Positions 45,744 to 62,092 of a stretch of DNA of 64,000 nucleotides are shown in pieces. The stretch covers positions 2,950,501 through 3,014,500 of the forward strand of contig NZ_CP016020.1 of assembly GCF_001889165.1 (NCBI RefSeq), read 5' to 3'. Numbering within the stretch: the stretch's first letter is position 1; each line of letters opens with the position of its first letter. A model generated the notes under the pieces. It saw only the letters and a program-made list of their open reading frames with translations, was not told the origin of the DNA and ran no database searches. The translations under genes and the position numbers were made by a program. Origin of the DNA: Bacillus weihaiensis. Its GTDB lineage: Bacteria > Bacillota > Bacilli > Bacillales > Bacillaceae.

Positions 45744-46388
45744 TCATTTTAACCATATCGTAAATAAACCCTCATTCACTCCTAAATTGTACATATAATA
45801 AAGACCAAATCCAAAGCTCACTGCCCCGGTGAGCATTGTTAGTGAACGGCTTACTCCTATGTTTTTTCGGCTGTATACAAAAGGAAGTCCAATAATCGTT
45901 GTAAAGAACATCATTCCTAGAATGGTTCCTACACCAAAAACTAAAATATAAATGATACTTTCCCAAACAGAGTTCACGGTTGATATTGTTAATAAAACCA
46001 TTGCTGCACTACCGGCAAGACCATGAATAAACCCGATAAATGTTGATTTTACATACGAATGTTGATGGAGCTGTGTATCTTGTAGCTGTTCTTTTTTAGT
46101 CAGAATGCTTTTTACACCAAAATAGACTAGCATTATTCCTACAAGGAATTCTAATGACATTGCCCACTCGGCAGATATACCACCTTTTAAGAGAATAATA
46201 GCAATTCCTACTATAAAGAGTGTCAATGTATGGCCTATCCCCCAAAAAACTCCTGTTAATGTAGAAATCCACAGCTTTTTACCCTTTCCTGCAACAGTTG
46301 CAACCGCAATGACATGGTCCGGCTCTAATGAATGTTTAATTCCCATCAACAACCCAAGGAATAAAACAGAAAGAAAACTAATTGTCAT
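45744..46388 (-). CDS. Nickel/cobalt transporter-like protein (UreH/NicO type)
   Basis: Membrane protein of 214 residues with six helices. The first helix has GIKHSLEPDHVIAVAT, an Hx4DH motif as in nickel transporters, and HGLAGSAAMVLLTISTV follows in the second half. The family includes UreH and related nickel permeases. It is the last gene after larC2, where a nickel importer makes sense for making the nickel-pincer cofactor. Specificity for nickel is inferred from motif and context. Confidence 0.8.
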   Translation of the reverse strand: MTISFLSVLFLGLLMGIKHSLEPDHVIAVATVAGKGKKLWISTLTGVFWGIGHTLTLFIVGIAIILLKGGISAEWAMSLEFLVGIMLVYFGVKSILTKKEQLQDTQLHQHSYVKSTFIGFIHGLAGSAAMVLLTISTVNSVWESIIYILVFGVGTILGMMFFTTIIGLPFVYSRKNIGVSRSLTMLTGAVSFGFGLYYMYNLGVNEGLFTIWLK

Positions 46389-46446
46389 AGTTACTTACCA
46401 CTCTTTCATTAAGAATACTTTTATAATAATGTGAAACCATAGATGG

Positions 46447-46911
46447 CTATTCTATGAGCTTCCAAACCTGCTCGTACACTTTTTTTAATGGAAGCTGATG
46501 GGCATCCGCAATTTTTTTGCACTCTTCAAATTCTGGAGATCTTTGAATTACTTGACCATCATAGATCCCTTCCTTAACGGTTATAGGCCCCCATTCCGTT
46601 TGGACCTGTGTGAACCTTCTCTCGGCTCTAAACACAGTCAACGGATAATATCTTATTCCAAGTGTAGTTGTTTCTTTTACTAATATTTCTCTCATAGCTG
46701 TAAGCTTATCGCGGTGACAAAGTAACTGAAGTAGGACACCAGGTCTATTTTTTTTCATATAAATAGGCGTATAAAATACATCATTAGCACCGGATTCGAA
46801 GAGTAAATCCATGACATAACCAAGCCATTCTCCTGATATATCATCAAGATTCACTTCAACCTTAAGCATTTCATCATCAATATGCTCCTCATTAGGTGGA
46901 TGAGAAATCAT
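46447..46911 (-). CDS. larC2: LarC2, C-terminal half of nickel insertase LarC
   Basis: Protein of 154 residues matching the C-terminal domain of LarC: LKVEVNLDDISGEWLGYVMD and IYMKKNRPGVLLQLLCHRDK. LarC inserts nickel into the pincer nucleotide. I start at the ATG at 46911 behind GAGAGGGGG. The frame is open back to 46959 and overlaps the end of larC1, displaced by one base. In L. plantarum LarC1 and LarC2 are joined by ribosomal frameshifting; here the same could happen, but the separate ribosome site also allows independent translation. Confidence 0.9.
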   Translation of the reverse strand: MISHPPNEEHIDDEMLKVEVNLDDISGEWLGYVMDLLFESGANDVFYTPIYMKKNRPGVLLQLLCHRDKLTAMREILVKETTTLGIRYYPLTVFRAERRFTQVQTEWGPITVKEGIYDGQVIQRSPEFEECKKIADAHQLPLKKVYEQVWKLIE

Positions 46912-46948
46912 CTGTATCCCCCTCTCACTTACACAGTTAATGATTAGC

Positions 46949-47863
46949 CTATTCTCCAATCACTACTCGAAGTACGTTTGGATGATCTTTAAACGTTTTC
47001 GTTCCTGCTCCATATCCAATCGCTTTCACTTCCATAGATGGAAGAGTACTAAACTCTTCTGTTAAAACCGCTACGATTGCCGCTCCAGTAGGAGTCGTTA
47101 ATTCAAACCGAACATCACTCTGCTCAATGGGAACCCCCTTTAACATCTCTAACGTTGCAGGTGCTGGAACTGGATAAATTCCATGATCAATACGAATTCT
47201 TCCTGTACCAACAGGGATTGAAGAAGAGATTACTTTCTTTATTTCCAATTGATGAATTAAAATAGCTGTCCCAACAATGTCAATGATAGAATCGACAGCT
47301 CCCACTTCATGGAAATGGACCTTGTCCAAAGGCACACCATGTATATGTCCCTCTGCTTCACCAATCTTCTTAAAGATCTGTAATGCTGTTTCTGTCACTT
47401 CACTTGAGAAGTCAGCAGACTCAATTAGCTTTACGATATCTTTATATGTCCGATGATGGTGATGATGAGTATGGTGGTGATCATGCTCATGATTGTGGTC
47501 ATGAGCATGATTGTGGTCATGAGCATGATTGTGGTCGTGCCCATGGTCGTGACTATGTTCATGGTTGTGGTTGTGGTTGTGGTCGTGCTCATGGTCGTGA
47601 TTATGCCCATGGTAGTGGTCGTGGCCATGGTCGTGATTATGCTCATGGTGGTGATCATCTTTCAATAGCACATCGAATTTTGTACTAGTAATCCCGTTCT
47701 TTACAACTTTCTCCCATTGAAGCTCATATTCTTCATCGATTTGGAGTTTTTTTAATTCACTTTTTAGCCACTCTGGATCTCCACCTATATCGAGAAGAGC
47801 ACCAATCATCATATCACCGCTAATTCCTGAGAAACAATCTAGATAAAGAGTTTTCATTGTCAT
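46949..47863 (-). CDS. larC1: LarC1, N-terminal part of nickel insertase with histidine-rich loop
   Basis: Protein of 304 residues: TLYLDCFSGISGDMMIGALL at the N terminus and PNVLRVVIGE at the end. Residues 71-137 are an extreme His/Asp/Asn repeat with about 38 histidines, a likely nickel store or chaperone loop. After it come LDKVHFHEVGAVDSIIDIVG and RIDHGIYPVPAPATLEMLKG, the conserved LarC core. Its start overlaps larB (ATGA); the ATG at 47857 is an equally good start. The gene ends at TAG where the larC2 frame is already open. Confidence 0.95.
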   Translation of the reverse strand: MTMKTLYLDCFSGISGDMMIGALLDIGGDPEWLKSELKKLQIDEEYELQWEKVVKNGITSTKFDVLLKDDHHHEHNHDHGHDHYHGHNHDHEHDHNHNHNHEHSHDHGHDHNHAHDHNHAHDHNHEHDHHHTHHHHHRTYKDIVKLIESADFSSEVTETALQIFKKIGEAEGHIHGVPLDKVHFHEVGAVDSIIDIVGTAILIHQLEIKKVISSSIPVGTGRIRIDHGIYPVPAPATLEMLKGVPIEQSDVRFELTTPTGAAIVAVLTEEFSTLPSMEVKAIGYGAGTKTFKDHPNVLRVVIGE

Positions 47864-48609
47864 CTATCTCCTTTCTGGGCCATTTGATGGATTAATACAG
47901 CATTATAAGCAGCTCCAAAGCCATTATCGATATTGACTACACTAATGCCGGAAGCACAGGAATTTAACATTGTTAATAATGCAGATAACCCGTTAAAATT
48001 CGCGCCATAGCCTACACTTGTTGGGACAGCAAGGATGGGATGACTAACAAGTCCACCTACTACACTTGGAAGGGCACCTTCCATTCCAGCCACTACAACG
48101 GAAACGGTTGCTTGTTGAATTTCTTCAATTGAAGCAAATAAACGATGGATTCCTGCTACGCCCACATCATAAAATCTTCTTACTTCACTTCCTAAAGCTT
48201 CTGCTGTAACAGCGGCTTCCTCTGCTACCTTTAAATCTGACGTTCCTGCACAAACAATGGCAATATACCCTTCAGATGCTACGGCTTTTTTTTCATCCTT
48301 CCAGAACAGGATTTGTGCGATTTCATTATACGTAAACTCAGGATATTCCTTTAGGATATATTCTGCTTTTTCTTTAGAAATTCTTGTTGCTAGTACATCA
48401 TGATCATTAGAACGAATGGACTGAATAATTGAAAGAATTTGTTCTTTCGTTTTTCCCTCACCGTATATAACTTCAGGAAACCCTTGACGCTTTTTTCGAT
48501 GATGATCGACTTTTGCAAATCCTAAATTTTCAAAGGTTGATAGTTGTCCCTTTGCTTCGTCGATACTTAATGATCCAGATTGTACTTGTCTTAAAATGTC
48601 TTCTAGCAT
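47860..48609 (-). CDS. larB: LarB, pyridinium-3,5-biscarboxylic acid mononucleotide synthase
   Basis: LarB of 249 residues. The PurE-like C-terminal domain has GYIAIVCAGTSDLKVAEEAA, VVVAGMEGALPSVVGGLVSH and TSVGYGANFNGLSALLTMLN. It carboxylates and hydrolyses nicotinic acid adenine dinucleotide as the first step toward the nickel-pincer cofactor. RBS AAGGGTGA. It overlaps larC1 and follows gntK. Confidence 0.96.
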   Translation of the reverse strand: MLEDILRQVQSGSLSIDEAKGQLSTFENLGFAKVDHHRKKRQGFPEVIYGEGKTKEQILSIIQSIRSNDHDVLATRISKEKAEYILKEYPEFTYNEIAQILFWKDEKKAVASEGYIAIVCAGTSDLKVAEEAAVTAEALGSEVRRFYDVGVAGIHRLFASIEEIQQATVSVVVAGMEGALPSVVGGLVSHPILAVPTSVGYGANFNGLSALLTMLNSCASGISVVNIDNGFGAAYNAVLIHQMAQKGDR

Positions 48610-48682
48610 TGTTATTCACCCTTATTAAAAGATTTAAGCTGCATTCATTCCACTATTCATAGTTGTAAAAAACTTAAGATTA

Positions 48683-50155
48683 TTAGAAATGCTTTACTAG
48701 ATCATTTACTAGTAGCTCATATTTTTTATAGAGCTCTCTATACGTTTTATGATTTGACTCATTTGGAACAATAGGTGTACTCATTGGAATGTTTTCCTTT
48801 ATCTGTTCAAAAGAAGCCACTTTATTAAGTGCAACTAATCCTGTCCATGCTGCTCCCCATGCTGCACTATGATGGCTTTCTGATACATACACTTCTTTCC
48901 CAAACATATCAGCAAGCATTTGTAGCCACAGACTTGATCTGGCCAATCCGCCATTTACATAGATTTTATCGGGTGCTCCAGCTAAGTTCTCTAAGCTTTG
49001 TCCGATTTGATAGAGGTTCAATGTGATTCCTTCTAATACTGCGCGAACGAAATGTTCTCTTTTATGAGTAACAGACATTCCAAAAAAGTTCCCTTTTGCC
49101 TGCTGATTCCATAGTGGTGCTCTTTCACCATTTATGTATGGGAGAAACAATAATCCTTCTGCACCAGGTGCTACTTTTTCTGCTTTTTGTGTAAATTCAT
49201 TAAAACTACCTTCATAATTGAGGAGTTCCTTTAACCATTGTAACGCGATTCCACCATTGTTTGTAGGTCCACCTATAATAGAGAACTCTTTTGTAAAAGC
49301 ATAGCTGAACGTATCGTGCTTTTCTGTAATGTTGAATCCATTTGCAAATTGGCGAATCGCGCCACTTGTCCCGGCTGTAATCGCAACTTCACCGGGAGAT
49401 ATCGCTCCGATTCCAAGGTTAGCTAATTGACCATCAGCAGCCCCCATAACAAAAGGTAAGTCACTGTCTACTCCCATTTCTCCCGCAATATGTTCTTTTA
49501 GCCCAGTAAGAATAGTAGTCGGTGAAACAACCTCTGAAAGCTGATTTCTTTGAATGTCTGCAAGCTTTAAAAGATCTTCGTCCCAGTCAAGTGAATGAGC
49601 GTTAAGCAATCCCGTAGAAACAGCCATTGAGTAATCAACAATGCGTTGATCAAACCATTTTAACAGAAGATATTCTTTAATTGATAAAAAATAAGCTGCG
49701 CTAAGGTATGGTTCATAGCCAACTTCTTTCATCCAGATAAGCTTTGAGAGTGGAGTCATAGGATGAATGGGTACACCTGTTTTCTCAAATAGCATTTTAC
49801 CCTTTTCTTGCTTCACTTTTTTAGCTTGTTCACTACTTCTACCATCTGCCCATATCAGTGCAGGTGATAATGGCTGACGATCCTTTCCTATACAGATAAG
49901 AGAATGCATAGCAGAAGAAAAGCCAACGGTAAGTATCTCCGTATTGTTGATATCCCCTTGCTCTATGGCAGTCCGTACTACTTTGACTGCTAACCGTTCA
50001 ATTTCGTCTGGATCTTGCTCCACCCATCCTTGCTTAGGATAATAAGAGGTAATCAATTCCTCTGACTCAGAGACAACTTTACCATTCAATTGAAAAACAA
50101 CTGCTTTTACACTTGTTGTACCTATATCAAGTCCAATTACTACTTCTCTTGTCAT
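48683..50155 (-). CDS. gntK: Gluconokinase (FGGY family)
   Basis: Kinase of 490 residues, the size of Bacillus GntK. Motifs: VIGLDIGTTSVKAVVFQLNG (phosphate 1), MHSLICIGKDRQPLSPALIW, VMGAADGQLANLGIGAISPG and IYVNGGLARSSLWLQMLADM. It makes 6-phosphogluconate. I start at 50155 (MTREVV) behind GAGGA. Embedded between larE and larB, it links gluconate to the Lar machinery. A related FGGY substrate such as xylulose is possible but the sequence reads as gluconate type. Confidence 0.9.
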   Translation of the reverse strand: MTREVVIGLDIGTTSVKAVVFQLNGKVVSESEELITSYYPKQGWVEQDPDEIERLAVKVVRTAIEQGDINNTEILTVGFSSAMHSLICIGKDRQPLSPALIWADGRSSEQAKKVKQEKGKMLFEKTGVPIHPMTPLSKLIWMKEVGYEPYLSAAYFLSIKEYLLLKWFDQRIVDYSMAVSTGLLNAHSLDWDEDLLKLADIQRNQLSEVVSPTTILTGLKEHIAGEMGVDSDLPFVMGAADGQLANLGIGAISPGEVAITAGTSGAIRQFANGFNITEKHDTFSYAFTKEFSIIGGPTNNGGIALQWLKELLNYEGSFNEFTQKAEKVAPGAEGLLFLPYINGERAPLWNQQAKGNFFGMSVTHKREHFVRAVLEGITLNLYQIGQSLENLAGAPDKIYVNGGLARSSLWLQMLADMFGKEVYVSESHHSAAWGAAWTGLVALNKVASFEQIKENIPMSTPIVPNESNHKTYRELYKKYELLVNDLVKHF

Positions 50156-50220
50156 AGCTTCATCTTCCTCTTCAAAAATATTGTACCAACCTGCACCACT
50201 TCGCTTTCTCACCAAAGAAA

Positions 50221-50246
50221 AGGCCTTGGAAATAACTCCAAAGCCT
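50221..50246 (-). terminator. Terminator between larE and gntK
   Basis: AGGCCTTGGA pairs with TCCAAAGCCT except for one bulge or mismatch; on the minus strand TTTTCTTTGG follows. It sits between the larE stop (50253) and the gntK start, so expression downstream would be reduced or need its own promoter. Confidence 0.6.
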
Positions 50247-50252
50247 GTTTGA

Positions 50253-51050
50253 TTATGAAAGAACCTTGTTCATACTCCCACTCTTATATCCGATTAAATC
50301 TAACGTTATATATTTATAACCATATTCAAGTAGCTTAGTGGCAATCTTCTCATGATTTTCTAGTATGATTTTCATATCGTCTGGCTCCACTTCAATCCTC
50401 GCCATATCCTGATGGGTTCTGACTCGAACTTGACGAATACGAAGCGTTTTTAAATAAGCCTCTGCTTTTTCTACTTTCGTTAGCTTCTCAATTGTAATTT
50501 TGTCACCATACGCAATTCTAGATGAAAGGCAAGCAAAGGACGGCTTGTTCCATGTAGGCAAATCCATTTCCTTTGACAGCTCTCTTATTTCTTCTTTAAA
50601 TAAGTTTGCTTCCTGTAATGGCCCACGTACTCCCTTTTCCTTTGCAGCTTTCATCCCAGGTCGAAATTCATTCATATCATCTGCGATGACGCCATATACT
50701 ACATTGTTCAAGCCCTCTTTTTCCATAACAGGGATAATCTGTTCAAATAAGCTATTTTTACAGAAGTAGCATCGATTTCGATCATTTTCTGTATATCCTG
50801 GAATGGCTAGCTCTGATGTTTCAATGACTCGATGTGTAGCGCCAATTCTTTGTGCTAACTCCTTTGCCTCTTGAAGCTCGCTCGATGGGTATGTCTCAGA
50901 GTCAGCCGTTACAGCTAACACTCGGTCGGTCCCCAATGTATCTACGGCAACCTTTAACAAAAAGGTACTATCCACTCCACCTGAAAATGCGACAACAACT
51001 GATTCCATCTCTTGGAGAATAGACATTAAATTAAGAAGTTTTTCATTCAT
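50253..51050 (-). CDS. larE: LarE, nickel-pincer cofactor sulfur-insertion enzyme (copy 2)
   Basis: LarE of 265 residues, clearly paralogous to the gene at 39514: FSGGVDSTFLLKVAVDTLG, RCYFCKNSLF and NKPSFACLSSRIAYGDK. The same three cysteines are kept, which suggests the [4Fe-4S] type. It sits inside the glucuronate/gluconate operon with larB and larC. RBS GGGAGAAG. The two LarE may be differently regulated copies serving different LarA enzymes. Confidence 0.95.
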   Translation of the reverse strand: MNEKLLNLMSILQEMESVVVAFSGGVDSTFLLKVAVDTLGTDRVLAVTADSETYPSSELQEAKELAQRIGATHRVIETSELAIPGYTENDRNRCYFCKNSLFEQIIPVMEKEGLNNVVYGVIADDMNEFRPGMKAAKEKGVRGPLQEANLFKEEIRELSKEMDLPTWNKPSFACLSSRIAYGDKITIEKLTKVEKAEAYLKTLRIRQVRVRTHQDMARIEVEPDDMKIILENHEKIATKLLEYGYKYITLDLIGYKSGSMNKVLS

Positions 51051-51128
51051 GCTTGTCTTCTCCCTTCTACATCTATAAAACTAGTAAACTACTCAATAGT
51101 ATACCGAAAATATCTGAATATTTACAGA

Positions 51129-51899
51129 TTAAATTGTCATGCTGCCGAATCCACCATCAACACGAATCAGTGCCCCTGTAACGAAACTTGACGCTTTCTC
51201 AGATGCAAGCCAAACCGCTGCTCCCTGTAGCTCATCAGGGGTACCAAAACGATTCATTGGCGTATGATTCATAATTGAATCAATTCGTTCTTCACTTAAG
51301 ATTTTTCTATTTTGTTCGGCTGGGAAGAAGCCAGGAATAATCGCGTTCACACGTATGCCATTTGGAGCAAGCTCTCTTGCTAAGAATTGTGTCATGCTAT
51401 TAACTCCAGCTTTTGAAACAGAATATGTAAACACCTTTGAAAGCGGAGTTGTTGATGATACAGACGAAATATTAATAATACTTCCTTTTCTTCCTTGCTC
51501 AATCATTTTCTTAGCGAAAATCTGGCAAGTAACCATCATTCCTTTTAAATTAACATCCATAATGTCATCCCACTCTTCTTCCCCTAACTCAAAGAAGGGA
51601 GTTGCACTATTTTTACCCGGTGCATTTAGAAGAATATCGAAGCCACCCGCCCATTCCTCAATTTCCTTAGCTACATCTTCTAAAGATTCTCGCTTACTAA
51701 CATCAGCTTGAAATGCTTTTGCCTTTCCACCGGCTTCTTCAATTTCTTGGACAACTTGTTTTGCTTTTTCAATATTTCTTCCTACAATGGCAATGTTCGC
51801 ACCATGTTCAGACATTCCTTTTGTGATTGAGGATCCTAATACACTGTTTCCTCCAAAAGCTACGACTGTTTTTCCTGTTAAATCAAATAAATTTGACAT
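51129..51899 (-). CDS. uxuB: SDR-family D-mannonate (fructuronate) oxidoreductase
   Basis: SDR of 256 residues. Cofactor motif FGGNSVLGSSITKGM, catalytic NISSVSSTTP and YSVSKAG, then IPGFFPAEQNRKILSEERID and NHTPMNRFGTPDELQGAAVW. The GFFPAEQN and HTPM.RFG blocks are those of Bacillus UxuB/YjmF-type enzymes, which interconvert fructuronate and mannonate. Start at 51899 behind AAGGGGGA; the long N-terminal extension to 52067 is not translated in my view. It sits between the LarA-like gene and larE. Confidence 0.85.
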   Translation of the reverse strand: MSNLFDLTGKTVVAFGGNSVLGSSITKGMSEHGANIAIVGRNIEKAKQVVQEIEEAGGKAKAFQADVSKRESLEDVAKEIEEWAGGFDILLNAPGKNSATPFFELGEEEWDDIMDVNLKGMMVTCQIFAKKMIEQGRKGSIINISSVSSTTPLSKVFTYSVSKAGVNSMTQFLARELAPNGIRVNAIIPGFFPAEQNRKILSEERIDSIMNHTPMNRFGTPDELQGAAVWLASEKASSFVTGALIRVDGGFGSMTI

Positions 51900-52189
51900 A
51901 TAGATCATCCCCCTTAAATTGTTTTTACATCTTTTATTGATTTTCTTTAAAATGACTAAATTAAACTTTGTTTGTGATTCGATAAAAGCATTCTCGATCC
52001 ACTTGCTGTCTTGGAGCCTCTTATTAAAAGCACAGGACAGCTTCTCCCGAAGGAGTGTCCATGCCATTTACTCCAATTACCAATGTGCTAAAATTTAAAA
52101 TCAACCATACGCTTTAAACATAGACTTAAAAAGATGAAAAAGATTCCATTATAATCCACTAGGTTGTGTACTAAATTCAAGAGAATCAA
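51900..52189 (-). other. 290-nt leader or spacer upstream of uxuB
   Basis: Unusually long gap inside an otherwise compact operon. It has a minus-strand TATAAT at about 52150, and CTCC-N5-GGAG (52042-52055) as a short hairpin. I could not match it to a known riboswitch. It may hold a secondary promoter. Confidence 0.3.
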
Positions 52190-53458
52190 TTAGTTTAAAT
52201 TTCCGTCCTGATTAAAGGAAAGCTCATATAAATCTGATAGTAAGTCCATATCAGGATGATTTTTCACATAATCAACTAAAGCTTCCGATACTTCAATTTC
52301 TGCGATTTCTAACGTATTTTTAATCCGAACCATTTTGACTTGTGTAAAATCTAAAATATTACAGGTTTTAATGGCCGCTTTCATTGCATCTTCATCATTT
52401 GCTAATGTTGTAGCAATTTTTGTCGGTGCACAGACTGTTGATGTTAATCCGTTTGCATAGGTTACTTCACGATCCATCTTGTCAACTAAACGCTGGGTTG
52501 TGAAATCAGCTGTTCCAACTCCATTGGCATTTCCTTCTGTTTGATGAGTTAAATCAAGAACCACCATTTTATTTACGTCAGGACCACCCTTAGCGTAAGG
52601 TGTTGGATAACGCCCTGTAATATTCGGATCCATTCCGTCACCGCTAATGTTTTTTCCAATTTCATCAATAACAAGGACGTCGATTTGCTCAAAAAACAAT
52701 TTAGGTAGAAGCTGTTTGGCTAATGCTTGGAGATCTGGCTCCTTTTCTTCAATTTCTTCCACGGCTAACACCTCTACTTGAACCACCTTATCAAATGCAT
52801 TTTCAAGTGTAGCCACTCCAAAAAGAATCGGTGTTTTTTGCATCATCATTTTAGCCATAGCCGGAACATTTTCCGCCATATATTTAAAGCCAAGTTGATG
52901 TGTTGCTTCTGCACCCTTTTGCTTACCTAAGCCTATACTAATCATTTTCATTATGCCGCTTTCAACTGGACCTCTGAATGCCGTATGTGGTTTAATTCTG
53001 TTGATAACGATGATTCCATCTGCCTCTGAGGCATATTTGTCAATATAAACTGGTAAGCCATTCGGTAGCTCACCTAGTTTAATTACTTCCATTGACGATC
53101 GTATTTCTGCTTTTACACTCTCTTCTGTTACACCAAGATGGGCTAATACCTCTTTTTGCCCTTCTGCCGTTGCTCCCCCATGACTTCCCATACTAGGAAC
53201 AATAAATGGCCTTGCACCTAAATCTTTCAAAAACTGCACGGTCGTTGCTGTTACTTCAACTAGACGATCCATCCCTCTGCTGCCTACCGCAATCGCAATT
53301 TCCATCCCAGGCCTTACTTTTGAACGAATCGTTTCTACCTGTAATTTTTCATTAATGGCTTGTTCTACATCCTCAATTTTAGTTTGATCAAAGTTTTGCT
53401 TTACCTTCGCCATTTTCGGAACCGGAATGTCCTTTAGTAGATCTTTAAGAATTCCCAT
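52190..53458 (-). CDS. Divergent LarA-like nickel-dependent epimerase, probable gluconate/mannonate 2-epimerase
   Basis: Protein of 422 residues of the DUF2088/LarA superfamily, far from the canonical LarA at 40424. Residues matching the cofactor site: R61 (VGSRGMDR), H93 (GSHGGAT), H158 (RIKPHTAF), K171 (GIMKMIS) and H187 (AEATHQLG); the K-to-H distance of 16 is conserved. Some members of the superfamily are known to be D-gluconate 2-epimerases. Between uxaC and uxuB, and with gntK and gndA in the same region, epimerisation of mannonate to gluconate is the best guess. RBS AAGGAG. Confidence 0.8.
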   Translation of the reverse strand: MGILKDLLKDIPVPKMAKVKQNFDQTKIEDVEQAINEKLQVETIRSKVRPGMEIAIAVGSRGMDRLVEVTATTVQFLKDLGARPFIVPSMGSHGGATAEGQKEVLAHLGVTEESVKAEIRSSMEVIKLGELPNGLPVYIDKYASEADGIIVINRIKPHTAFRGPVESGIMKMISIGLGKQKGAEATHQLGFKYMAENVPAMAKMMMQKTPILFGVATLENAFDKVVQVEVLAVEEIEEKEPDLQALAKQLLPKLFFEQIDVLVIDEIGKNISGDGMDPNITGRYPTPYAKGGPDVNKMVVLDLTHQTEGNANGVGTADFTTQRLVDKMDREVTYANGLTSTVCAPTKIATTLANDEDAMKAAIKTCNILDFTQVKMVRIKNTLEIAEIEVSEALVDYVKNHPDMDLLSDLYELSFNQDGNLN

Positions 53459-53483
53459 CGCTTTTATCTGCTCCTTTAAGTAA

Positions 53484-54887
53484 TCATCTTAACGAGAAAT
53501 ATTCTTTTGCGTTATGAAAACCAATATTTTTGACCATTTGATGTAAAATCGCTTCATCATTCGGAACTTTTCCATCTTCCACCCATTCACCAATGATCGT
53601 ACATACAATTCTTCTAAAGTATTCATGACGAACATATGAAAGAAGACTACGAGAATCTGTTGTCATTCCGATAAAGTGGCTGAGTGAGCCTAAGTTCGCT
53701 AAATCTGTCATTTGATTGAGCATGCCATTGTATTGATCATTAAACCACCAGCCAGAACCAAATTGAACCTTACCAGGAATACCCTCTTCAAAGAAATTCC
53801 CAATCATCGTTCCAATTACATAATTATCACGTGGATTTAAATTATAAAGAACAGTTCTTGGAAGCGACCTAGCTTGATCAAGGGTATCTAGAAAACGCGA
53901 CAAACCTTCAGCTAGTAATTGATCACCGATTGAATCAAAGCCACCATCTGCACCAATTAATTCTTTCATATACGTGTTATTATTTCTCAATGCACCCATA
54001 TGTAGCTGCATAACCCATTCTTTCTCTGCGTACATCTTTCCTAATTCAACTAAAAGATAGGAGCGATAACCAATAATTTCCTCAGCTGTAAGCTCTTCAT
54101 TCTGTAGACGTTTAGTAAAAATCTCTTCTACTTCAGCCTTTGGAAGATCTTTGTATACCATAAGTGGGATATCATGATCAGATGCATAGCAGCCGTTTTC
54201 AGCAAAATAATGAACTCTTTCTTTTAAGGCCTTTACTAAACCATCAAGTGTATCAACCTTTAGGTTAGTGGATTTCTCTAGTTTAGTAAGCCATTCTTTG
54301 AAACTAGGTCTTTCAAGAAACAGCGCTTGATCAGGACGAAATGTTGGACCTACTTCCACAGAAAATTCTTCATCCTCTTTTAATAGCTTATGATAGTCTA
54401 GAGAATCAGTTGGGTCATCTGTAGTCCCAACAAATTGTACTTGTGACCGTTCGATAAATCGGCGGGGCTTAAAGTCATCAGTTTGCAACTTTTCGTTACA
54501 TTCTTCCCAAATTTCTTTTGCTGTATCCGCAGATAAAAGCTTCGAAATACCGAAATAGGTTCTTAGCTCCATGTGCGCCCAGTGGTAGAGCGGATTTCCG
54601 AATAAATAAGGCATTGTTTCAGCCCATGCGGCGAATTTCTCCCAATCACTCGCATCACCAGTAATTAAGTGTTCATTTACTCCGTGAATACGCATAGCAC
54701 GCCATTTATAATGATCACCAGCAAGCCAAAGCTGTGTCATATTTTCAAACGATTGATTTTCATAGATTTCCTTCGGACTTAGATGACAATGATAGTCGAA
54801 GATCGGTAAGTCTTTCATTACTTGATGATAAAGCTTCTCTGCAGTTGAATTTGTTAGTAAAAAGTTCTCATCTAAAAACGTTTTCAT
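53484..54887 (-). CDS. uxaC: Glucuronate isomerase (uronate isomerase)
   Basis: UxaC of 467 residues, amidohydrolase fold: LPIFDYHCHLSPKEIYENQ (HxH metal site), NPLYHWAHMELRTYFGIS, VQFVGTTDDPTDSLDYH and MTTDSRSLLSYVRHEYFRR. It converts D-glucuronate to D-fructuronate (or galacturonate to tagaturonate). Start at 54887 behind GGAGGAG. First gene of the operon toward larC2 and the nickel transporter; divergent from the ROK regulator. Confidence 0.97.
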   Translation of the reverse strand: MKTFLDENFLLTNSTAEKLYHQVMKDLPIFDYHCHLSPKEIYENQSFENMTQLWLAGDHYKWRAMRIHGVNEHLITGDASDWEKFAAWAETMPYLFGNPLYHWAHMELRTYFGISKLLSADTAKEIWEECNEKLQTDDFKPRRFIERSQVQFVGTTDDPTDSLDYHKLLKEDEEFSVEVGPTFRPDQALFLERPSFKEWLTKLEKSTNLKVDTLDGLVKALKERVHYFAENGCYASDHDIPLMVYKDLPKAEVEEIFTKRLQNEELTAEEIIGYRSYLLVELGKMYAEKEWVMQLHMGALRNNNTYMKELIGADGGFDSIGDQLLAEGLSRFLDTLDQARSLPRTVLYNLNPRDNYVIGTMIGNFFEEGIPGKVQFGSGWWFNDQYNGMLNQMTDLANLGSLSHFIGMTTDSRSLLSYVRHEYFRRIVCTIIGEWVEDGKVPNDEAILHQMVKNIGFHNAKEYFSLR

Positions 54888-54928
54888 TTCTTTCTCCTCC
54901 AAATTCCTTTAGTATGTATTCTTAGATT

Positions 54929-54991
54929 CTATATAACAAGTGTTAGTAATAGTTGAATACCGAAACTCTTTGCTCTTTTTACGTGAGCCAT
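54929..54991 (-). CDS. Possible 20-residue leader peptide upstream of uxaC
   Basis: A short frame, MAHVKRAKSF then GIQLLLTLVI, with GAGGGG seven bases ahead of its ATG, ends 41 bp before the uxaC start. It is basic then hydrophobic. It may be a translated leader, or chance. Confidence 0.25.
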   Translation of the reverse strand: MAHVKRAKSFGIQLLLTLVI

Positions 54992-55058
54992 AGAAATCCC
55001 CTCGGTGAAAGGCCTGATTTTTTTCATTTTCCTAGCTTTTAGTAAATCATTTCTGTGC

Positions 55059-55102
55059 TATAATTACCTTATTACATTAGTTAGTTTACAAAACAAATTA
55101 AT
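55059..55102 (+). promoter_or_regulatory. Promoter and ROK operator in the uxaC-ROK intergenic region
   Basis: An extended -10, TGCTATAAT (55056-55064), precedes a 27-bp operator at 55076-55102: left arm ATTAGTTAGTTT, centre ACA, right arm AAACAAATTAAT (10 of 12 positions symmetric). It resembles XylR boxes and recurs almost identically upstream of gndA. A ROK repressor bound here would block its own start point. Confidence 0.65.
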
Positions 55103-55271
55103 GTGTTATCAGTAGAATATCACTTCTACTACTACCCGTCAATGATTTGATTTTTACATTTCTCCCCTTATGTCATGATTGATTTTCTAGTGTAATGGTA
55201 GAATGTATAATGATTTTATTGGCAATTTAGAGCGTATTCTCTACCACATATATTAGAAGGGTGATTACAAC

Positions 55272-56441
55272 ATGGCAACAGGCGATGCTGCTTATATTAA
55301 AAAAATTAATAGAAGTTTGATTATAAGTAAAATTATTGAAGAAGGAATGATTTCAAGAGCCGATTTATCAAAGATCACTAACCTTACAAGAGCTACAATC
55401 TCCGTTCAGGTAGCAGACTTGTTAGAAGAAAATTTGATAGTGGAATCTCAACAGGAACATAACCATGTAGGAAGAAAACCAATCATGCTTTCACTTAATC
55501 GTCTTTCCGGATTTGCATTAGGGATAGACTTAGATTACAAACAGGTGACATTTACCTTATCTGATTTAGCTGGAAACCCTGTTCAAACAGAAGTAGTTGA
55601 GCTGAAAAACTCCCTATATGAAAATGCACTTGAATTACTTAAAAGCCAAATTAAAGCTTTTGATGATCAATGTTCAGACAGTCACTTTGGTCTTATAGGG
55701 GTTGTAATTGGCGTACACGGGATTGTTACAAAAGGTCAAATGATTAATTTTGTTCCTCAGCATAAATGGGAACACAAACATCTAAAGGAAGATCTAGAGA
55801 AGGACCTCAATATCACTATACGTATTGAGAATAACGCAAATTTATGCTCATTTGCAGAGAAAGTCTACAAGCGTCATCAAAGTGAGAATTTAGTGAGTGT
55901 TAGTATGTACTCTGGCATCGGATTAGGCATCTTAATCAACGGGGACCTGCTTAAGGGATACCATGGATACGCTGGTGAAATGGGGCACATGATCGTCGTT
56001 CCTGAGGGTAAAGCCTGTAATTGTGGAAACTCAGGTTGCTGGGAACTATATGCTTCTGAAGCTAGCTTCTTTCGTCAGCTACATGAATTGCAGCAAACTC
56101 AAGAACTAACCTATAAGGATGTAAAAAAGCTTATGGATGAACAAGAGCCAGCTACGCAAAAGCTACTAGAAGAATTTATAAACTATGTAGCCATCGGTCT
56201 AAATAACATTATCAATTTATTAAACCCTGAAACATTAGTGTTAAATAGTGAGCTATTAAAGCTAGATCCGCATGCTATTGATAAGATTAAGGCTAATCTT
56301 ACTTCATCCGTCAGCTATTATCATGAATTGTTTATCTCAGATTTAGGAAAAGATGCTGCTGTAATGGGAGCCTGTGCGTTGGCGATTAAAAGCTTTTTAG
56401 ACATTCCTGATCTAAGACTACACATTGAGGATGTTCAATAA
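55272..56441 (+). CDS. ROK-family repressor, XylR-like
   Basis: Regulator of 389 residues. The N-terminal HTH is SRADLSKITNLTRATISVQV; the ROK domain follows with GLIGVVIGVHGIV, IRIENNANLCSFAEKVY, SMYSGIGLGILINGDLLKGY, GYAGEMGHMIVVPEGK and the zinc motif CNCGNSGCWELYAS. Overall it is closest to Bacillus XylR. The same operator occurs in front of itself and gndA, so it probably controls the uronate-to-pentose-phosphate genes; the inducer (a sugar, uronate or intermediate) is unknown. Confidence 0.9.
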   Translation: MATGDAAYIKKINRSLIISKIIEEGMISRADLSKITNLTRATISVQVADLLEENLIVESQQEHNHVGRKPIMLSLNRLSGFALGIDLDYKQVTFTLSDLAGNPVQTEVVELKNSLYENALELLKSQIKAFDDQCSDSHFGLIGVVIGVHGIVTKGQMINFVPQHKWEHKHLKEDLEKDLNITIRIENNANLCSFAEKVYKRHQSENLVSVSMYSGIGLGILINGDLLKGYHGYAGEMGHMIVVPEGKACNCGNSGCWELYASEASFFRQLHELQQTQELTYKDVKKLMDEQEPATQKLLEEFINYVAIGLNNIINLLNPETLVLNSELLKLDPHAIDKIKANLTSSVSYYHELFISDLGKDAAVMGACALAIKSFLDIPDLRLHIEDVQ

Positions 56442-56560
56442 GATAAGCATAAGGCGACAAGGGCTAGACACTGAAACGACAAATATTTACTACACCCTTT
56501 TATGTTTGATTAAGCTTGCAAGTGCCTTAGGTAGCAAAAACTACGATAGAACACTCCAAC

Positions 56561-56600
56561 ACATGTAACCCCACTCTTTATCTTGAGTAGGGTTACATGT
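56561..56600. terminator. Hairpin between convergent ROK gene and gndA
   Basis: ACATGTAACCCC and GGGTTACATGT pair, extended by ACTC/GAGT around a short loop. It lacks strong T-runs; it could end either converging transcript. Confidence 0.5.
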
Positions 56601-56662
56601 GTATCTAGTACATTATCCAATATGGATGACGAAATATCACCTCTGCTAGCTTAATGATGTTC

Positions 56663-58078
56663 TCATTCCATCCAATTTGTATGAAATACTCCTTCTTTAT
56701 CAATGCGTTGATACGTATGAGCTCCAAAGTAATCACGTTGAGCTTGTAAGAGATTCGCTGGTAATCCTTCACTACGATAACTATCATAATAAGCGATAGC
56801 ACTTGAAAATGCTGGTACTGGAATACCATTTTCTACTGATAAAGATATCACTTGGCGTAAGGCTGATTGATACGTTTCTACGATTTCTTTAAAGTATGGA
56901 TCTAAAAGAAGATTTGCAAGGCTCGGATCACGATCGTATGCCTCTTTAATCTTTTGTAAGAATTGAGCACGGATAATACAGCCACCACGGAAGATCATGG
57001 CAATATCTCCATAGTTAAGGTCCCACTTGTATTCTTCTGATGCTGCCCGCATCTGAGCAAAGCCTTGAGCATATGAAACAATTTTACTTAAGTAAAGAGC
57101 TTTCCGAACAGCTTCAATCAAGTCTTCTTTCTTTCCATTAAAGGAAGTAGGCTTTGGTCCTTTTAACAGCTTACTAGCTTTTACTCTCTCATCCTTCATA
57201 GCCGAAATGAAGCGAGCGAAGACTGACTCCGTAATAATTGGAAGGGGAACACCTAGATCAAGGGCATTTTGACTTGTCCACTTTCCTGTCCCTTTTTGTC
57301 CTGCGGTATCAAGGATTAAATCAACTAAAGGTTTACCGGTTTCTTCGTCTACTTTTGTGAAAATGTCAGATGTAATTTCGATAAGATAGCTGTTAAGCTC
57401 TCCTTTATTCCAGTCGGCAAAAACCTGATGGAGCTCTTTTGCACGTAAGCCAAGTACGTTTTTAAGAATAAAGTAAGCTTCACAAATTAATTGCATGTCA
57501 CCGTATTCAATCCCATTGTGAACCATTTTCACATAATGACCTGCACCATTTGGTCCAATATATGTCACACATTCCTCTACTCCAACTTTAGCTGAAACCG
57601 CTTTTAAAATGGGTGCAACTAGCTCATAAGCTTCCTTCTGTCCACCTGGCATAATAGAAGGTCCTTTCAATGCTCCTTCTTCCCCACCTGAAACACCAGT
57701 CCCAATAAAATGAATGCCTGTTGATTCTAATTCTTTATTTCGTCTGATTGTATCTTCGAAAAATGTATTTCCACCATCTATTAAAATATCACCTTCTTCA
57801 AGATATGGTCGTAATGATGCAATTGTTGCATCTGTAGCTGCACCTGCCTTTACCATCAACAAAATTTTACGTGGTTTTTCCAAAGAAGTAACAAACTCTT
57901 CGATCGTTTTTAACCCCACAACATTTTTTCCTTCTGCTTCATTTTTTAAAAACTCTTCTGTTTTCTCATATGAACGGTTGAAGACGGAAACAGAATACCC
58001 TCTGCTTTCAATGTTTAAGGCCAGATTTTTTCCCATTACAGCTAATCCAATAACACCTATTTGTTGTTGTTTTGACAT
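56663..58078 (-). CDS. gndA: 6-phosphogluconate dehydrogenase, decarboxylating
   Basis: Enzyme of 471 residues: [20 protein letters not shown] (NADP site), [39 protein letters not shown] and [15 protein letters not shown]. It yields ribulose 5-phosphate, CO2 and NADPH. I start at 58078 because AGGAA is too close to the first ATG (58084). It has its own promoter region with the ROK operator. In this setting it completes the gluconate branch; it may also be the cell's general Gnd. Confidence 0.97.
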
Positions 58079-58152
58079 ATCCATTTCCTTTCTTAATAGA
58101 AGAGATAGACTCTATAAATCACTCAAAAAGATTCAACAGACTATCATCATCT

Positions 58153-58179
58153 ATTAATTTGTTTTGTAAACTAATTAAT
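58153..58179. promoter_or_regulatory. ROK (XylR-like) operator upstream of gndA
   Basis: On the minus strand: ATTAATTAGTTT, ACA, AAACAAATTAAT, differing at one base from the box at 55076-55102. It is centred about 88 bp upstream of the gndA start. Confidence 0.7.
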
Positions 58180-58260: not shown

Positions 58261-60660
58261 TTATATCTTTACCACGTATCCTTTATTTTCCTTCGTTAAC
58301 TCTTTCCCATTCACAAGTAATTTTCTCTCATCATTTTCAGGTAGATAGAATCGAATGGTTTCGTAAGGAAGTTTGTATGCTCCCTCAATACTGTAGTGAA
58401 CATTTATTACATCTGAACTCGCTTCCATTTTGACTGAAACAATTGTGTGATTTTCTTGATAATCAGCGGATATACCATCATCCTCGAAAAGATCATAAGT
58501 CGTCACTCCAGCGTCTTTTTGTGGGAATAAAAAGAATCCACGTTCATCCTTAGTTTTATCTGCAAATGAAGAGTCAGCATCATTCATCGGAATGATACTT
58601 CCTGCTTTTATTAATAAAGGATTATATTCCAATGGTGCGGGGATCCTTACTGTTTGCCCACCTTCATACCATTGGGAAGTGTGGTAATCATACCAACCAT
58701 CTTCATATTTCGGTAAATAAACCGTTCTTTCTCTTTGACCCTTTTCAACAACTGATGCAACGAGCATTGATTCACCTAACATGAAATCATCATTTTCTTC
58801 AAACGTTTTTTCATCATGTTCGAATTCATAGAAAGTTGGACGAAGAATCGGTTCGTATTTTTCATGTGCATTGTATAATGCCGTATATAAATAAGGAATC
58901 ATCCGATGACGGAACTTAATTAAATCTCGGATGAGACCTGTTGTTTCTTCATACATCCAAGGGACATTGACCGTTTTATCATCATTCCATGAATGAATGG
59001 TAAAACGGGGATGGAAGATACCGTTCTGTACCCATCTCACTAATAGCTCTTGCTCTGGAGCTGGGCCTGAAAATCCACCAATATCATGGCCAAGGTTATA
59101 AATACCAGATAGACTTAAGCCAACTCCCATTTTAATATTGTATTTTAATGATTTCCAGCTTGTATAGTTATCTCCTGACCAAGTCTGGACATAGCGTTGC
59201 ATCCCAGGACTTCCTGAACGAGAAATTAAATATGGTCTAAGTTCTGGAGCATACTCCTTTTGTGCTTCATATGAAGCCTTCATCATTAAAAGTGGTTGTA
59301 AGGAGCGCACATTTTCAAAATTCGTTTGTTCACCGAACCCATTACAAACAGCATTTTTTGACCATACTTCAAATTCATTATTATCGTTCCATGTGGAATC
59401 GATTCCAAACTCTAATAACTGCTCCGTCACCTTTTGCTTCCACCACTTCACTGATTCTTCATTTGTAAAATCAATGTACGCGCCAACTTCATCCCAAAAT
59501 TGTGCCATTTCAATTTCGCCAGCTTCATTCAAAATAAACATGTTTTTTTCTTTTAATTCATGAAACAGAGGATGATCCTTCAATAATGCTGGCTTAATAT
59601 TTGCACATAGCTTTACACCTTTATCATGAAAGTCATTAATAAATCCCTTTGCATCAGGAAATTTATCCGTATTCCAATTGAAGACATAACGCTTATCTCC
59701 TATTGAGGTATATCCTGAAGATAATTGAAACGAATCACATATGATATCGTTTTCTTCACAGCTATTAATGAATTTCTTTACTTGTTCCTGTGCATCAGGT
59801 GCATCCGTATAAGTCATTGTTGAACCTGAATAACCGAAACTCCATTTAGGGGCAAAAATGGTTTTACCTGTTAACCAAGAATATTTCTTCACAACATCTT
59901 TTACTTCAGGTCCTAACATAACATAGTAGTCTAAATCGCCTGCCATTGATTGATAATATCTATACCATCCATGGTAGTTATCCATTTCGTTTCCCATATC
60001 AAAAACACTCTGAGCCATATTATCATAGAAAATTCCAAACGAGATCTTTGTTTGCTTATTTCGAGTAATATAAAATGGAATATGCTTATACAGGGGATCC
60101 GTGTGCTGAGCATCATAGCCCATTGGATCAACACTTAGCATACGGTAACGCTTACCATATCGATCTGTTTCTCCAGCTTTTTCCCCTAACCCAAAATATT
60201 GTTCTTCTAGTGTTCGTTTTTGATAATGATAAATCCCTTCACCTAGTGACCCATCGAAGTTATATGCTTGTGTTTGACGATCCGAGGCAATTTGTTGCAC
60301 ATTTCCTGATGAATCTTTTGCAAACCACGTTAGTTTAAATCCATCTAAGTTAATGTTCACCTTTACACGAGCTGTTTCAATCGTAAAGGTGCTCCCTTCA
60401 TTTTTATAACGATAGTGTGGGAGTGAATATGGGGTTAAGTCAAATCGATCTCTCCCTTCCATAGGGACATCATCCATACCTGGAGCGACAAGCCATGTCT
60501 TCTTAACCTCAAGCTCTTCACCTTTCGTCATCATCACACGTAGCATATCTTCTTCTAATACAAATACTCTTGCGATCACATCTGATTGATCTAATTGAAA
60601 CATGAGCGTATTGTTTTTTTCTGCTAAAAATTGAAACTGGTATCTTTCTCTTAATGACAT
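58261..60660 (-). CDS. GH31 family alpha-glycosidase
   Basis: Enzyme of 799 residues: N-terminal beta-sandwich, TIM barrel from about residue 260 (FAPKWSFGYSGSTMTYTDAP), then C-terminal beta domains. The nucleophile region is FGIDSTWNDNNEFEVW (Asp of the WxDxNE motif) and the acid/base region QTWSGDNYTSWKSLKY. No signal peptide, so it works in the cytoplasm on an imported glycoside. The motif is closer to alpha-glucosidases than to YicI (KTDFGE). The start at 60660 avoids the GTG overlapping AAGGTG. Between TRAP transporter and gndA it may free a uronate-linked sugar; xyloside is an alternative. Confidence 0.88.
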   Translation of the reverse strand: MSLRERYQFQFLAEKNNTLMFQLDQSDVIARVFVLEEDMLRVMMTKGEELEVKKTWLVAPGMDDVPMEGRDRFDLTPYSLPHYRYKNEGSTFTIETARVKVNINLDGFKLTWFAKDSSGNVQQIASDRQTQAYNFDGSLGEGIYHYQKRTLEEQYFGLGEKAGETDRYGKRYRMLSVDPMGYDAQHTDPLYKHIPFYITRNKQTKISFGIFYDNMAQSVFDMGNEMDNYHGWYRYYQSMAGDLDYYVMLGPEVKDVVKKYSWLTGKTIFAPKWSFGYSGSTMTYTDAPDAQEQVKKFINSCEENDIICDSFQLSSGYTSIGDKRYVFNWNTDKFPDAKGFINDFHDKGVKLCANIKPALLKDHPLFHELKEKNMFILNEAGEIEMAQFWDEVGAYIDFTNEESVKWWKQKVTEQLLEFGIDSTWNDNNEFEVWSKNAVCNGFGEQTNFENVRSLQPLLMMKASYEAQKEYAPELRPYLISRSGSPGMQRYVQTWSGDNYTSWKSLKYNIKMGVGLSLSGIYNLGHDIGGFSGPAPEQELLVRWVQNGIFHPRFTIHSWNDDKTVNVPWMYEETTGLIRDLIKFRHRMIPYLYTALYNAHEKYEPILRPTFYEFEHDEKTFEENDDFMLGESMLVASVVEKGQRERTVYLPKYEDGWYDYHTSQWYEGGQTVRIPAPLEYNPLLIKAGSIIPMNDADSSFADKTKDERGFFLFPQKDAGVTTYDLFEDDGISADYQENHTIVSVKMEASSDVINVHYSIEGAYKLPYETIRFYLPENDERKLLVNGKELTKENKGYVVKI

Positions 60661-60755
60661 TTGATTCACCTTTTTCTGTAGTTATCTGATTATAAGTGTG
60701 TCGTCATCTTTCTTTCATAGTAGACTAGCAGGCTATGAACCTGCTTCTCTACCCT

Positions 60756-62051
60756 TTAATAACCGAGCATTCTAGGAAGCATCATACTGATTTCTGGAAT
60801 ATACGTAACCACTAGTAAAACGATAATAATGACAACGTAGAAAGGAATTAATGGTTTGATTACATCCTCTAAATCTAAATTTGCAATACTCGCCCCAACA
60901 AATAAGGCACTTCCAACTGGAGGAGTGATATTACCGATACTCAAATTTAGTACCATCATAATTCCAAAATGAATGGGATCCATTCCAAAACTCGTTACAA
61001 TCGGTAAAAAGATTGGTGTGAAAATAAGCACAGCTGGAGTAATATCCATAAATGTACCAATTATTAATAAGAAGATATTTAAGATTAATAGAATGATAAT
61101 AGGATTATCCGAAATAGACAGGATCAATTCACTAATCGCTGTAGGAATCCCTGTAAATGCCATGACCCATGACATAATAGATGAAGCAGCTACAAGTAGC
61201 ATGATGACTGCTGTAATCTCAACTGTTTCCATGATAATACGAGGTAAATCAGTTAGCTTAACTGTTCGATAAACCATTGCCAAAAGAAATGTATACGCAA
61301 CTGCTACTGCCGCAGCTTCAGTCGCTGTAAAAATCCCACCTAAAATTCCACCAATGACAATAACAATTAAAAGTAAGCTTGGGATCGCATCTAAAAATGT
61401 TTTAACAGCTACTATAAATGGTACTCTTTCAGACACAGGATAATTTCTACGTTTTGCGATAATATATCCAACTACAATACAGGCTAAGCCCCATAAGATA
61501 CCTGGTAAATAACCTGCAATAAACAACGCAGCTACTGAAGTTCCACCACTTACTAATGAGTAAATAATTAAAACGCCACTTGGTGGAATAATTAATCCCG
61601 TTGGAGCAGAAGCAATATTAACTGCTGCTGAAAATTTCGGATCATATCCTTCCTTCTTTTGTAAAGGTCCCATTGTTCCTCCGATAGCTGCTGCTGCTGC
61701 AACAGAAGAACCCGAAAGAGAGCCAAACAACATATTACCTAATACATTTGCATGAGCTAAGGATCCAGGCATTTTCCCAACAAGTACTTTTGCAAAATTG
61801 ATAAGACGCTCAGCGATTCCACCATTATTCATTAAAATTCCTGAAAGGATAAAAAATGGAACCGCCAACAGTGTAAAACTATCAAGTCCTGTTACCACTT
61901 TCTGAGCTGCCGTGAAAATGGCCATATCCATGGGCAAAATCGTTAAAATCGTAACCATTGAAGCAATCACGATACTAACTGAAATCGGCACACTTAGAAC
62001 AAGCATTAGAAAAAATACAATGACTAAAACAAGTCCAGCTTGTAATGCCAT
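60756..62051 (-). CDS. dctM: TRAP transporter large permease subunit (DctM)
   Basis: Membrane protein of 431 residues with about 12 helices. Family blocks: FFILSGILMNNGGIAERLIN, GNMLFGSLSGSSVAAAAAIG, TGLIIPPSGVLIIYSLVSGG and GNITPPVGSALFVGASIANL. It forms the sodium-coupled channel. Start at 62051, behind AAAGGAGTGA; the GTG at 62060 is in that site. It follows dctQ by about 40 bp. Confidence 0.95.
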   Translation of the reverse strand: MALQAGLVLVIVFFLMLVLSVPISVSIVIASMVTILTILPMDMAIFTAAQKVVTGLDSFTLLAVPFFILSGILMNNGGIAERLINFAKVLVGKMPGSLAHANVLGNMLFGSLSGSSVAAAAAIGGTMGPLQKKEGYDPKFSAAVNIASAPTGLIIPPSGVLIIYSLVSGGTSVAALFIAGYLPGILWGLACIVVGYIIAKRRNYPVSERVPFIVAVKTFLDAIPSLLLIVIVIGGILGGIFTATEAAAVAVAYTFLLAMVYRTVKLTDLPRIIMETVEITAVIMLLVAASSIMSWVMAFTGIPTAISELILSISDNPIIILLILNIFLLIIGTFMDITPAVLIFTPIFLPIVTSFGMDPIHFGIMMVLNLSIGNITPPVGSALFVGASIANLDLEDVIKPLIPFYVVIIIVLLVVTYIPEISMMLPRMLGY

Positions 62052-62092
62052 ACTGTTCACTCCTTTAGACTAAATACATAGGGTAAATTGCC

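Follow-up and report, generated by a model that had tools for sequence, protein, structure and literature searches.

A probable nickel-dependent route from glucuronate to gluconate in a Bacillus weihaiensis gene cluster

In the canonical UxaC-UxuB-UxuA-KdgK-KdgA pathway, glucuronate is broken down by way of the mannonate dehydratase UxuA, which leads to 2-keto-3-deoxygluconate (KDG). A 64-kb stretch of Bacillus weihaiensis DNA (NZ_CP016020.1, referred to throughout as the window; its genome, G000, is 99.99% complete) has the uronate isomerase UxaC and a UxuB-related short-chain dehydrogenase/reductase (SDR) in common with that pathway, but the genome lacks UxuA, and beside uxaC stands a gene for a distant relative of LarA together with genes for synthesis of the nickel-pincer nucleotide (NPN). 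The cluster thus raises the question of how the products of UxaC are carried further. An earlier note on this DNA had proposed that the LarA-like enzyme replaces mannonate dehydratase. The genes it named lie where it had placed them, on the minus strand, and have family matches, and its central proposal is supported by the lack of UxuA, altronate dehydratase and an enolase-type mannonate dehydratase, by co-occurrence with UxaC, by a swap with UxuA in a relative, by the SDR tree, by a repeated operator, and by the fold and both histidines of the protein itself. We consider it likely that the cluster encodes a nickel-dependent glucuronate-to-gluconate route, with gluconate as the proposed product.

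The cluster and its LarA-like protein

The LarA-like protein (52190..53458, minus strand) passes the cut-off of the NCBIfam model "NPN isomerase group 22" (NF052515; 562 bits, cut-off 400). It is very distant from the LarA proper encoded in the same window (40424..41698); the latter reaches 553 bits against the LarA model and 19 bits against that of group 22. The predicted structure adopts the LarA fold, although the model is poor at residues 268-292. His93 and His158 align with His108 and His174 of LarA in phmmer comparisons with PDB entries 2yjg and 5huq, both weak (E 0.04 and 0.21); hhalign places His158 opposite the second histidine of the window's own LarA, and both residues are invariant in 60/60 group-22 proteins. 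Lys171 and His187, also kept in all 60, align with Lys184 (NPN-binding) and His200 (nickel-binding) of 5huq, and Arg61, which aligns with the window LarA's arginine at the Arg75 position, is found in 58 of the 60, some rows being incomplete. When the group-22 profile was searched against the PDB, the LarA-like entries that it reached were two with very poor E values (0.73 and 1.5), and the rest, TAL repeats among them, were matches by chance. We infer that the protein binds NPN and depends on nickel; the genes for NPN synthesis lie in the same cluster.

Genes in the window run in the order DctP, DctQ, DctM, GH31, Gnd, ROK, UxaC, LarA-like, SDR, LarE, kinase, LarB, LarC, and the strand and spacing of those on the uxaC side suggest a single operon. 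In the route that we propose, a tripartite ATP-independent periplasmic (TRAP) transporter (DctM, DctQ and DctP, 60756..63694, minus strand; family matches, that of DctQ weak at 49 bits), a candidate for uronate uptake, would probably import glucuronate or an oligomer of it, and UxaC (53484..54902, minus strand, with a probable start at 54887 judged by eye; PF02614, 705 bits; NF002794, 639 bits) would convert glucuronate to fructuronate. The SDR (51129..51899, minus strand, in an open reading frame that extends to 52067 and has its probable start at 51899) would then reduce fructuronate to D-mannonate. LarB (47860..48609; NF033503, 316 bits, cut-off 175), LarC, encoded as LarC1 (46949..47863, with a long histidine-rich insert; TIGR00299, 228 bits, cut-off 90) and LarC2 (46447..46959; NF052512, 148 bits, cut-off 50), and the sulfur transferase LarE (50253..51050; TIGR00268, 368 bits, cut-off 150), all on the minus strand, would make the NPN loaded on the group-22 enzyme, which would take a hydride off C2 and return it to the other face, turning D-mannonate into D-gluconate. 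An FGGY kinase (48683..50215, minus strand, probable start 50155) would phosphorylate gluconate to 6-phosphogluconate, and a dedicated 6-phosphogluconate dehydrogenase, Gnd (56663..58084, minus strand; TIGR00873, 766 bits), would send this product into the pentose phosphate pathway.

The larB, larC1, larC2 and larE genes are in the cluster, as the earlier note had said; because a second LarA (the LarA proper) and a second LarE (39514-40359) are also encoded in the window, they may serve both LarA proteins. The LarC1 and LarC2 reading frames overlap (window 46900-47000). In another species, LarC is produced by a programmed frameshift.

Co-occurrence with UxaC and exchange with UxuA

We surveyed 299 genomes of the same order, 47 of which hold group-22 proteins above the cut-off, and built a tree on 60 such proteins. 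The window protein falls in a clade (clade A, SH-aLRT 100) of 19 members, itself included, the others being 70-83% identical to it. Of the 18 other members, 17 adjoin the same SDR type and one (L063, in genome G246) adjoins a UxuA-type SDR; most also adjoin LarE, the FGGY kinase and LarB or LarC. In G246, stop codons interrupt the LarA22 and UxaC frames, which may reflect decay of the locus or faulty assembly.

A set of loci from named genomes, the best 80 of 401 relatives (76-92% identical, from Bacillus-like genera and Paenibacillus), is closely related and its members are therefore not independent. Within the 62 of these that have full flanks, the SDR is found in 60, LarE in 55, the kinase in 54, LarB in 53, LarC1 in 49, the ROK gene in 48, LarC2 in 46, UxaC in 35 and Gnd in 33. 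In 59/62 the SDR begins no more than 400 bases from the LarA gene, and in L154 its called start overlaps that gene. At six loci of Lederbergia and some Bacillus (L121, L124, L129, L132, L166 and L177), UxaC, LarA22 and the SDR stand together; the FGGY kinase and LarB/LarC were not seen in the available stretch, which for several is limited by a contig end, and the kinase may be encoded elsewhere in these genomes or belong to another family.

UxaC accompanies clade A throughout. It is present in 19/19 surveyed clade-A genomes and 64/280 others (Fisher p 5e-12; the Fisher values given here take no account of ancestry, and the surveyed genomes are related), counting 83 genomes as UxaC-bearing after 5 of 88/299 matches were dropped as fragments or below the cut-off. 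It is also present in all 49 further clade-A genomes drawn from the 80 named loci, from which survey members were excluded only where recognized, giving 68/68 overall. Among nine separate UxaC loci examined in clade-A genomes, five (L190, L192, L193, L194 and L196) have LarC2 within 7 kb of UxaC, directly adjoining it in L193 and L194, so that the link between UxaC and NPN synthesis persists in split operons.

In one relative of the same family (G082), locus L180 has the order DctP, DctQ, DctM, GH31, UxaC, UxuA, SDR, with identities to the window proteins of 53% for DctP, 50% for DctQ, 71% for DctM, 64% for GH31, 52% for UxaC and 40% for the SDR. L180 is the one UxuA version in a relative that was examined, and its UxuA was confirmed as such. 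On gene order, UxuA occupies the slot of the LarA-like gene in L180, a natural swap.

The distribution of UxuA agrees in part with such an exchange. In the survey, 85/299 genomes matched UxuA; we dropped eight weak cases (G035, G235, G093, G212, G273, G125, G092 and G056) and kept 77, including fragments in G262 and G283. In the named set 31/49 matched, and 29 were kept after the partial copies of G311 and G344 were dropped. Full-length UxuA is absent from 10/19 surveyed and 20/49 named clade-A genomes. The pooled comparison (38/68 clade-A genomes with UxuA vs 49/64 UxaC genomes without clade A, or 50 if the G262 fragment is counted; p 0.017) indicates a moderate loss of UxuA, many species having both. 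Among survey genomes that carry both enzymes, 0/9 with clade A have UxaC and UxuA no more than 20 kb apart, vs 33/49 without it (p 0.0002); in the named set 2/29 do.

The window's own genome has no PF03786 match, in a search whose control matched in 5/14 genomes, so the uxuA operon that the earlier note had wished to see sought elsewhere in the genome is absent. It likewise has no PF20629, the altronate dehydratase family, and the enolase-type mannonate dehydratase search returned only a MenC-like gene above the cut-off and a sub-cut-off match at G000:C1:497231. Two candidate outlets were rejected on these grounds: an enolase-superfamily mannonate dehydratase, its sole above-cut-off match being MenC-like and standing beside a MenE-like gene (judged by eye), and the use of UxaC for galacturonate through altronate dehydratase, PF20629 being missing. 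PF20629 was tested in 34 genomes, G283 not among them. Of the 10 clade-A genomes that have no full-length UxuA, six, each from a different family, are without it too, and it is present in 14/14 UxaC genomes that have neither clade A nor any UxuA. Both dehydratases are lacking in 6/19 clade-A genomes vs 0/63 (p 8e-5); with G180 and G246 removed and G283 scored as a counterexample, p is 0.006. In these counts, several PF20629 matches roughly 400 residues long from clade-A genomes, which sit in loci of another group-22 clade (clade B) and are probably not altronate dehydratase, were scored as present. With neither dehydratase in the genome, UxaC would be a dead end without the LarA-like enzyme; we know of no other exit for its products in the six genomes.

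The earlier note had also found no uxuA, KDG kinase or 2-keto-3-deoxy-6-phosphogluconate (KDPG) aldolase in the window. For UxuA this holds genome-wide; genes for the other two enzymes lie outside the window, at G000:C1 about 522-524 kb. As a sign of a UxuA route this pair was rejected, since KduI and KduD, encoded in the window at 34604-36208 (minus strand), can explain it; on these genes, KduI/KduD with KdgK/KdgA could form a route for unsaturated uronates.

A palindrome, TTAATTTGTTTTGTAAACTAATTAA, lies 5' of gnd (58154..58178, plus strand), and a copy with one mismatch lies between uxaC and the ROK gene, 5' of both (55077..55101, minus strand); 100 shuffles of the window contain none. These are the only two copies genome-wide at up to 3 mismatches, where a reversed control gives 0. 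In 62/80 named loci the palindrome (up to 5 mismatches) occurs within 400 bases 5' of UxaC, LarA22 or Gnd, and at 3 mismatches it occurs in 48/80, 40 shuffled patterns reaching at most 3 loci; some of the 101 real matches in the named loci fall elsewhere. The palindrome resembles ROK/XylR operators, and the ROK-family protein encoded divergently from uxaC (55272..56441, plus strand; PF00480, 198 bits) is predicted to bind it, so that one common operator would let a ROK repressor control both transcription units. The divergent ROK gene stands between gnd and the uxaC unit, and the dehydrogenase gene that the earlier note had counted in the cluster is there and has the operator in common with it, but forms a separate transcription unit. 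Since the operator is common to both, gnd is probably part of one response with the uxaC unit, which is what would be expected if gluconate is the end product. The genome has a second full gnd copy at G000:C1:1482519. Two more palindromes lie at 58224-58253, between gnd and the GH31 gene, and at 63857-63882, 5' of DctP.

Order of steps and rival readings

The position of the SDR bears most directly on the order of reduction and epimerization. In a tree it is sister to UxuA-linked SDRs (support 100/99), with Escherichia coli IdnO and KduD outside, and in G246 a UxuA-type SDR (417 bits) lies inside a LarA22 cluster whose genes carry stop codons. Both observations favor reduction to mannonate before epimerization. 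The reverse order, in which the LarA-like enzyme epimerizes fructuronate (5-dehydro-D-mannonate) to 5-dehydro-D-gluconate and the SDR then forms D-gluconate, draws support from the stereochemistry that we worked out, by which fructuronate, numbered as an acid, is the C2 epimer of 5-keto-D-gluconate, and from the gene order UxaC, LarA, SDR, kinase. The shorter window SDR reaches 278 bits to the D-mannonate oxidoreductase model where four UxuA-linked SDRs score 434-444, its second-best family is gluconate 5-dehydrogenase (214 bits), and PDB entry 1vl8, named gluconate 5-dehydrogenase (158.6 bits), ties as its match with 4wuv (158.4 bits), itself the best PDB match of a UxuA-linked SDR. Given the tree, the G246 cluster and the fact that known GntE enzymes work on mannonate and gluconate, we judge this order unlikely. 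A still smaller chance attaches to a kinase-first order, with 6-phosphomannonate, formed from mannonate, as the substrate of the LarA-like enzyme. Extracts of Lactobacillus suebicus yield 6-phosphomannonate and then 6-phosphogluconate according to the available sections of PMC6978723, and the FGGY kinase here falls under the gluconokinase cut-off; the GntE-group LarA enzymes tested in the corresponding sections of PMC7583248, however, use unphosphorylated hexonates, and the best solved relative of the kinase (PDB 3gbt) is a gluconate kinase.

The LarA-like enzyme might instead use another sugar acid and merely share the uronate operon, with the NPN genes mainly serving the LarA at 40424-41698. 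The presence of UxuA in many clade-A genomes, the tetronate-type or dehydratase genes beside other group-22 clades, and the second LarA and LarE about 10 kb away would all fit such an arrangement. We nevertheless regard it as very improbable, because clade A occurs with UxaC in every genome counted, precedes the SDR in 60/62 loci and gives its slot to UxuA in L180, and because the searches of the genome turned up no alternative outlet for what UxaC makes.

Several observations weigh against the proposed route itself. The SDR falls just under the D-mannonate oxidoreductase cut-off (PRK08277, 278 vs 281 bits), its L042 orthologue scoring 282.3, and the kinase falls below that for gluconokinase (gntK_FGGY, TIGR01314, 478 vs 648); the identities given to both in the earlier note thus hold as best families, below the curated cut-offs. 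In the LarA-like protein, Ser60 stands at the position of LarA Asp72, beside a two-residue gap in a weak hhalign alignment (probability 54%), and an equivalent of Lys298 is not fixed: Lys269 is invariant in group 22, but the hhalign comparison of the group with the window LarA covered 152 columns only and stopped short of that region, so the C-terminal catalytic lysine cannot be placed. GntE enzymes (LarAH groups 18-20) carry a signature of E and V/S in the loop after the second catalytic histidine (PMC7583248, PMC11770544, available sections), which is missing here; Thr159 and Ala160 follow His158, and neither phmmer nor hhalign, which place the gaps in this loop differently, gives E and V/S. 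The protein may work like GntE, but it is therefore not classed with that family. Two Paenibacillus loci (L175 and L178) hold a clade-A LarA immediately followed by LarE, LarB and LarC, with the SDR and kinase not nearby. Full-length UxuA coexists with clade A in 9/19 surveyed and 29/49 named genomes, so we reject strict mutual exclusion and take the LarA-like enzyme to provide a parallel route there, not a replacement. A UxaC copy adjoins UxuA in two of the 29 (G309 and G318, judged by eye), each of which carries further UxaC copies, and two of the six genomes lacking both dehydratases are weak cases, G180 being 87% complete and G246 having genes with stop codons. Finally, the LarA literature, in the parts examined, reports no activity for any group-22 protein, and genomic context failed to predict activity in several LarA groups (PMC7583248, same limits).

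Known systems, other clades and wider context

The type of pathway is known, given the Thermotoga maritima precedent and the reaction proven in other LarA groups; published enzymes are described here from the available sections of the papers cited. T. maritima GntE2 (LarAH20, PDB 4nar) converts D-mannonate to D-gluconate (PMC7583248), its gene sits between those for fructuronate reductase and gluconate kinase (PMC6978723), and the pathway had been proposed by Rodionova et al. 2012, as cited in PMC7583248. There too, as we propose here, a LarA-family NPN enzyme joins mannonate to gluconate alongside a reductase and a kinase. The earlier note's statement that LarA superfamily members epimerize gluconate is borne out by Corynebacterium glutamicum GntE1 (LarAH19), LarAH15 and LarAH10, which are NPN enzymes with D-mannonate/D-gluconate C2-epimerization (PMC7583248, PMC11770544) and belong to other LarA groups than group 22; GntE1 has a very high KM, and its real substrate may be another compound. 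L. suebicus, with a mannonate kinase and a 6-phosphomannonate 2-epimerase whose genes are unidentified (PMC6978723), likewise connects the isomerase pathway with 6-phosphogluconate through inversion at C2, but its kinase acts first. A single-histidine LarA-like subfamily, in which Asn replaces the second catalytic histidine (PMC12611868), resembles group 22 in being a LarA group near carbohydrate genes with the LarA fold, whereas group 22 retains both histidines. Group 22 is not among the tested enzymes in Table 1 of PMC7583248 or the other parts examined, the supplementary tables lying outside this scope and the equation of NCBIfam "group 22" with the numbering of that paper being an assumption, and our literature searches, which brought up the GntE and LarA papers and general work on uronates, listed none that connects uronates with group 22 or with NPN enzymes of Bacillus. 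As far as could be seen, what is added is the involvement of a distant enzyme group and of its hosts, the exchange with UxuA, and the operator and regulon.

Other group-22 clades have different neighbors. Clade B (15 rows) has TRAP genes nearby in 14, and one locus of this type that we checked (L051:9070-17296) holds an EDD-type dehydratase, an FAH hydrolase, a GD_AH dehydratase, an aldehyde dehydrogenase and an IclR regulator, which makes its group-22 protein a candidate aldonate C2-epimerase. Clade C (16 rows: L046, L055, L056, L061, L065, L067, L069, L070, L071, L073, L074, L076, L077, L078, L081 and L090) has a DUF1537 kinase and PdxA nearby in 16/16, TRAP genes in 13 and LarB/C/E in 14, and its proteins are candidate tetronate C2-epimerases. 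Taken jointly, these neighborhoods would fit a separate family of sugar-acid C2-epimerases in which gluconate 2-epimerase activity evolved independently of GntE, clade A serving hexuronate breakdown in the place of UxuA, clade C tetronates (DUF1537 kinase and PdxA; for example D-erythronate/D-threonate) and clade B another aldonate by way of a dehydratase and an aldehyde dehydrogenase, a proposal to which we give an even chance. Clade-A-like LarA genes also occur on very large plasmids (NZ_CP045296.1 of Paenibacillus cellulositrophicus, 77% identical; NZ_CP102590.1 of Niallia taxi, 76% identical), and remoter group-22-like relatives on many Sulfitobacter-type and haloarchaeal plasmid records.

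Further genes complete the picture of the window. A small membrane protein is encoded at 45744..46388 (minus strand), where the earlier note had placed a nickel importer. Its HX4DH motif presumably points to nickel import, but the family match is weak (PF13386, DsbD_2, 19.7 bits, cut-off 24.9), and a homologue was found in 6/62 full-flank loci only. In L094 (13241-18827) and L179, beyond the extent of the window, an oligopeptide/nickel-type ABC transporter stands with an MFS gene, and CobW-like and ZnuA-like genes follow further along (by eye), a possible case of metal uptake near the NPN cluster. Downstream of the TRAP genes lies a glycosidase of the alpha-glucosidase/alpha-xylosidase kind (58261..60669, minus strand; NF040948, 352 bits, below the cut-off of 800), which we take to be GH31. 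The second NPN set (window 37170-43083, minus strand) comprises the LarA proper, LarE, a PdxA-like dehydrogenase, a KdgT-like permease and a D-threonate-kinase-like DUF1537 protein (297 bits, below the cut-off), adjoined by a glycerate kinase and a CdaR-like regulator; judging from this gene content, an NPN epimerase here may channel D-erythronate or another tetronate into the D-threonate route.

The assignment provides a substrate that can be tested for a LarA group known in NCBIfam by number only, and points to a way of assigning functions to the other clades of group 22. It places a nickel-cofactor enzyme where the classic dehydratase would stand in many Bacillus-like and Paenibacillus species. 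If it is true, uronates in these bacteria would enter the pentose phosphate pathway instead of passing through 2-keto-3-deoxygluconate, and their use would depend on nickel.

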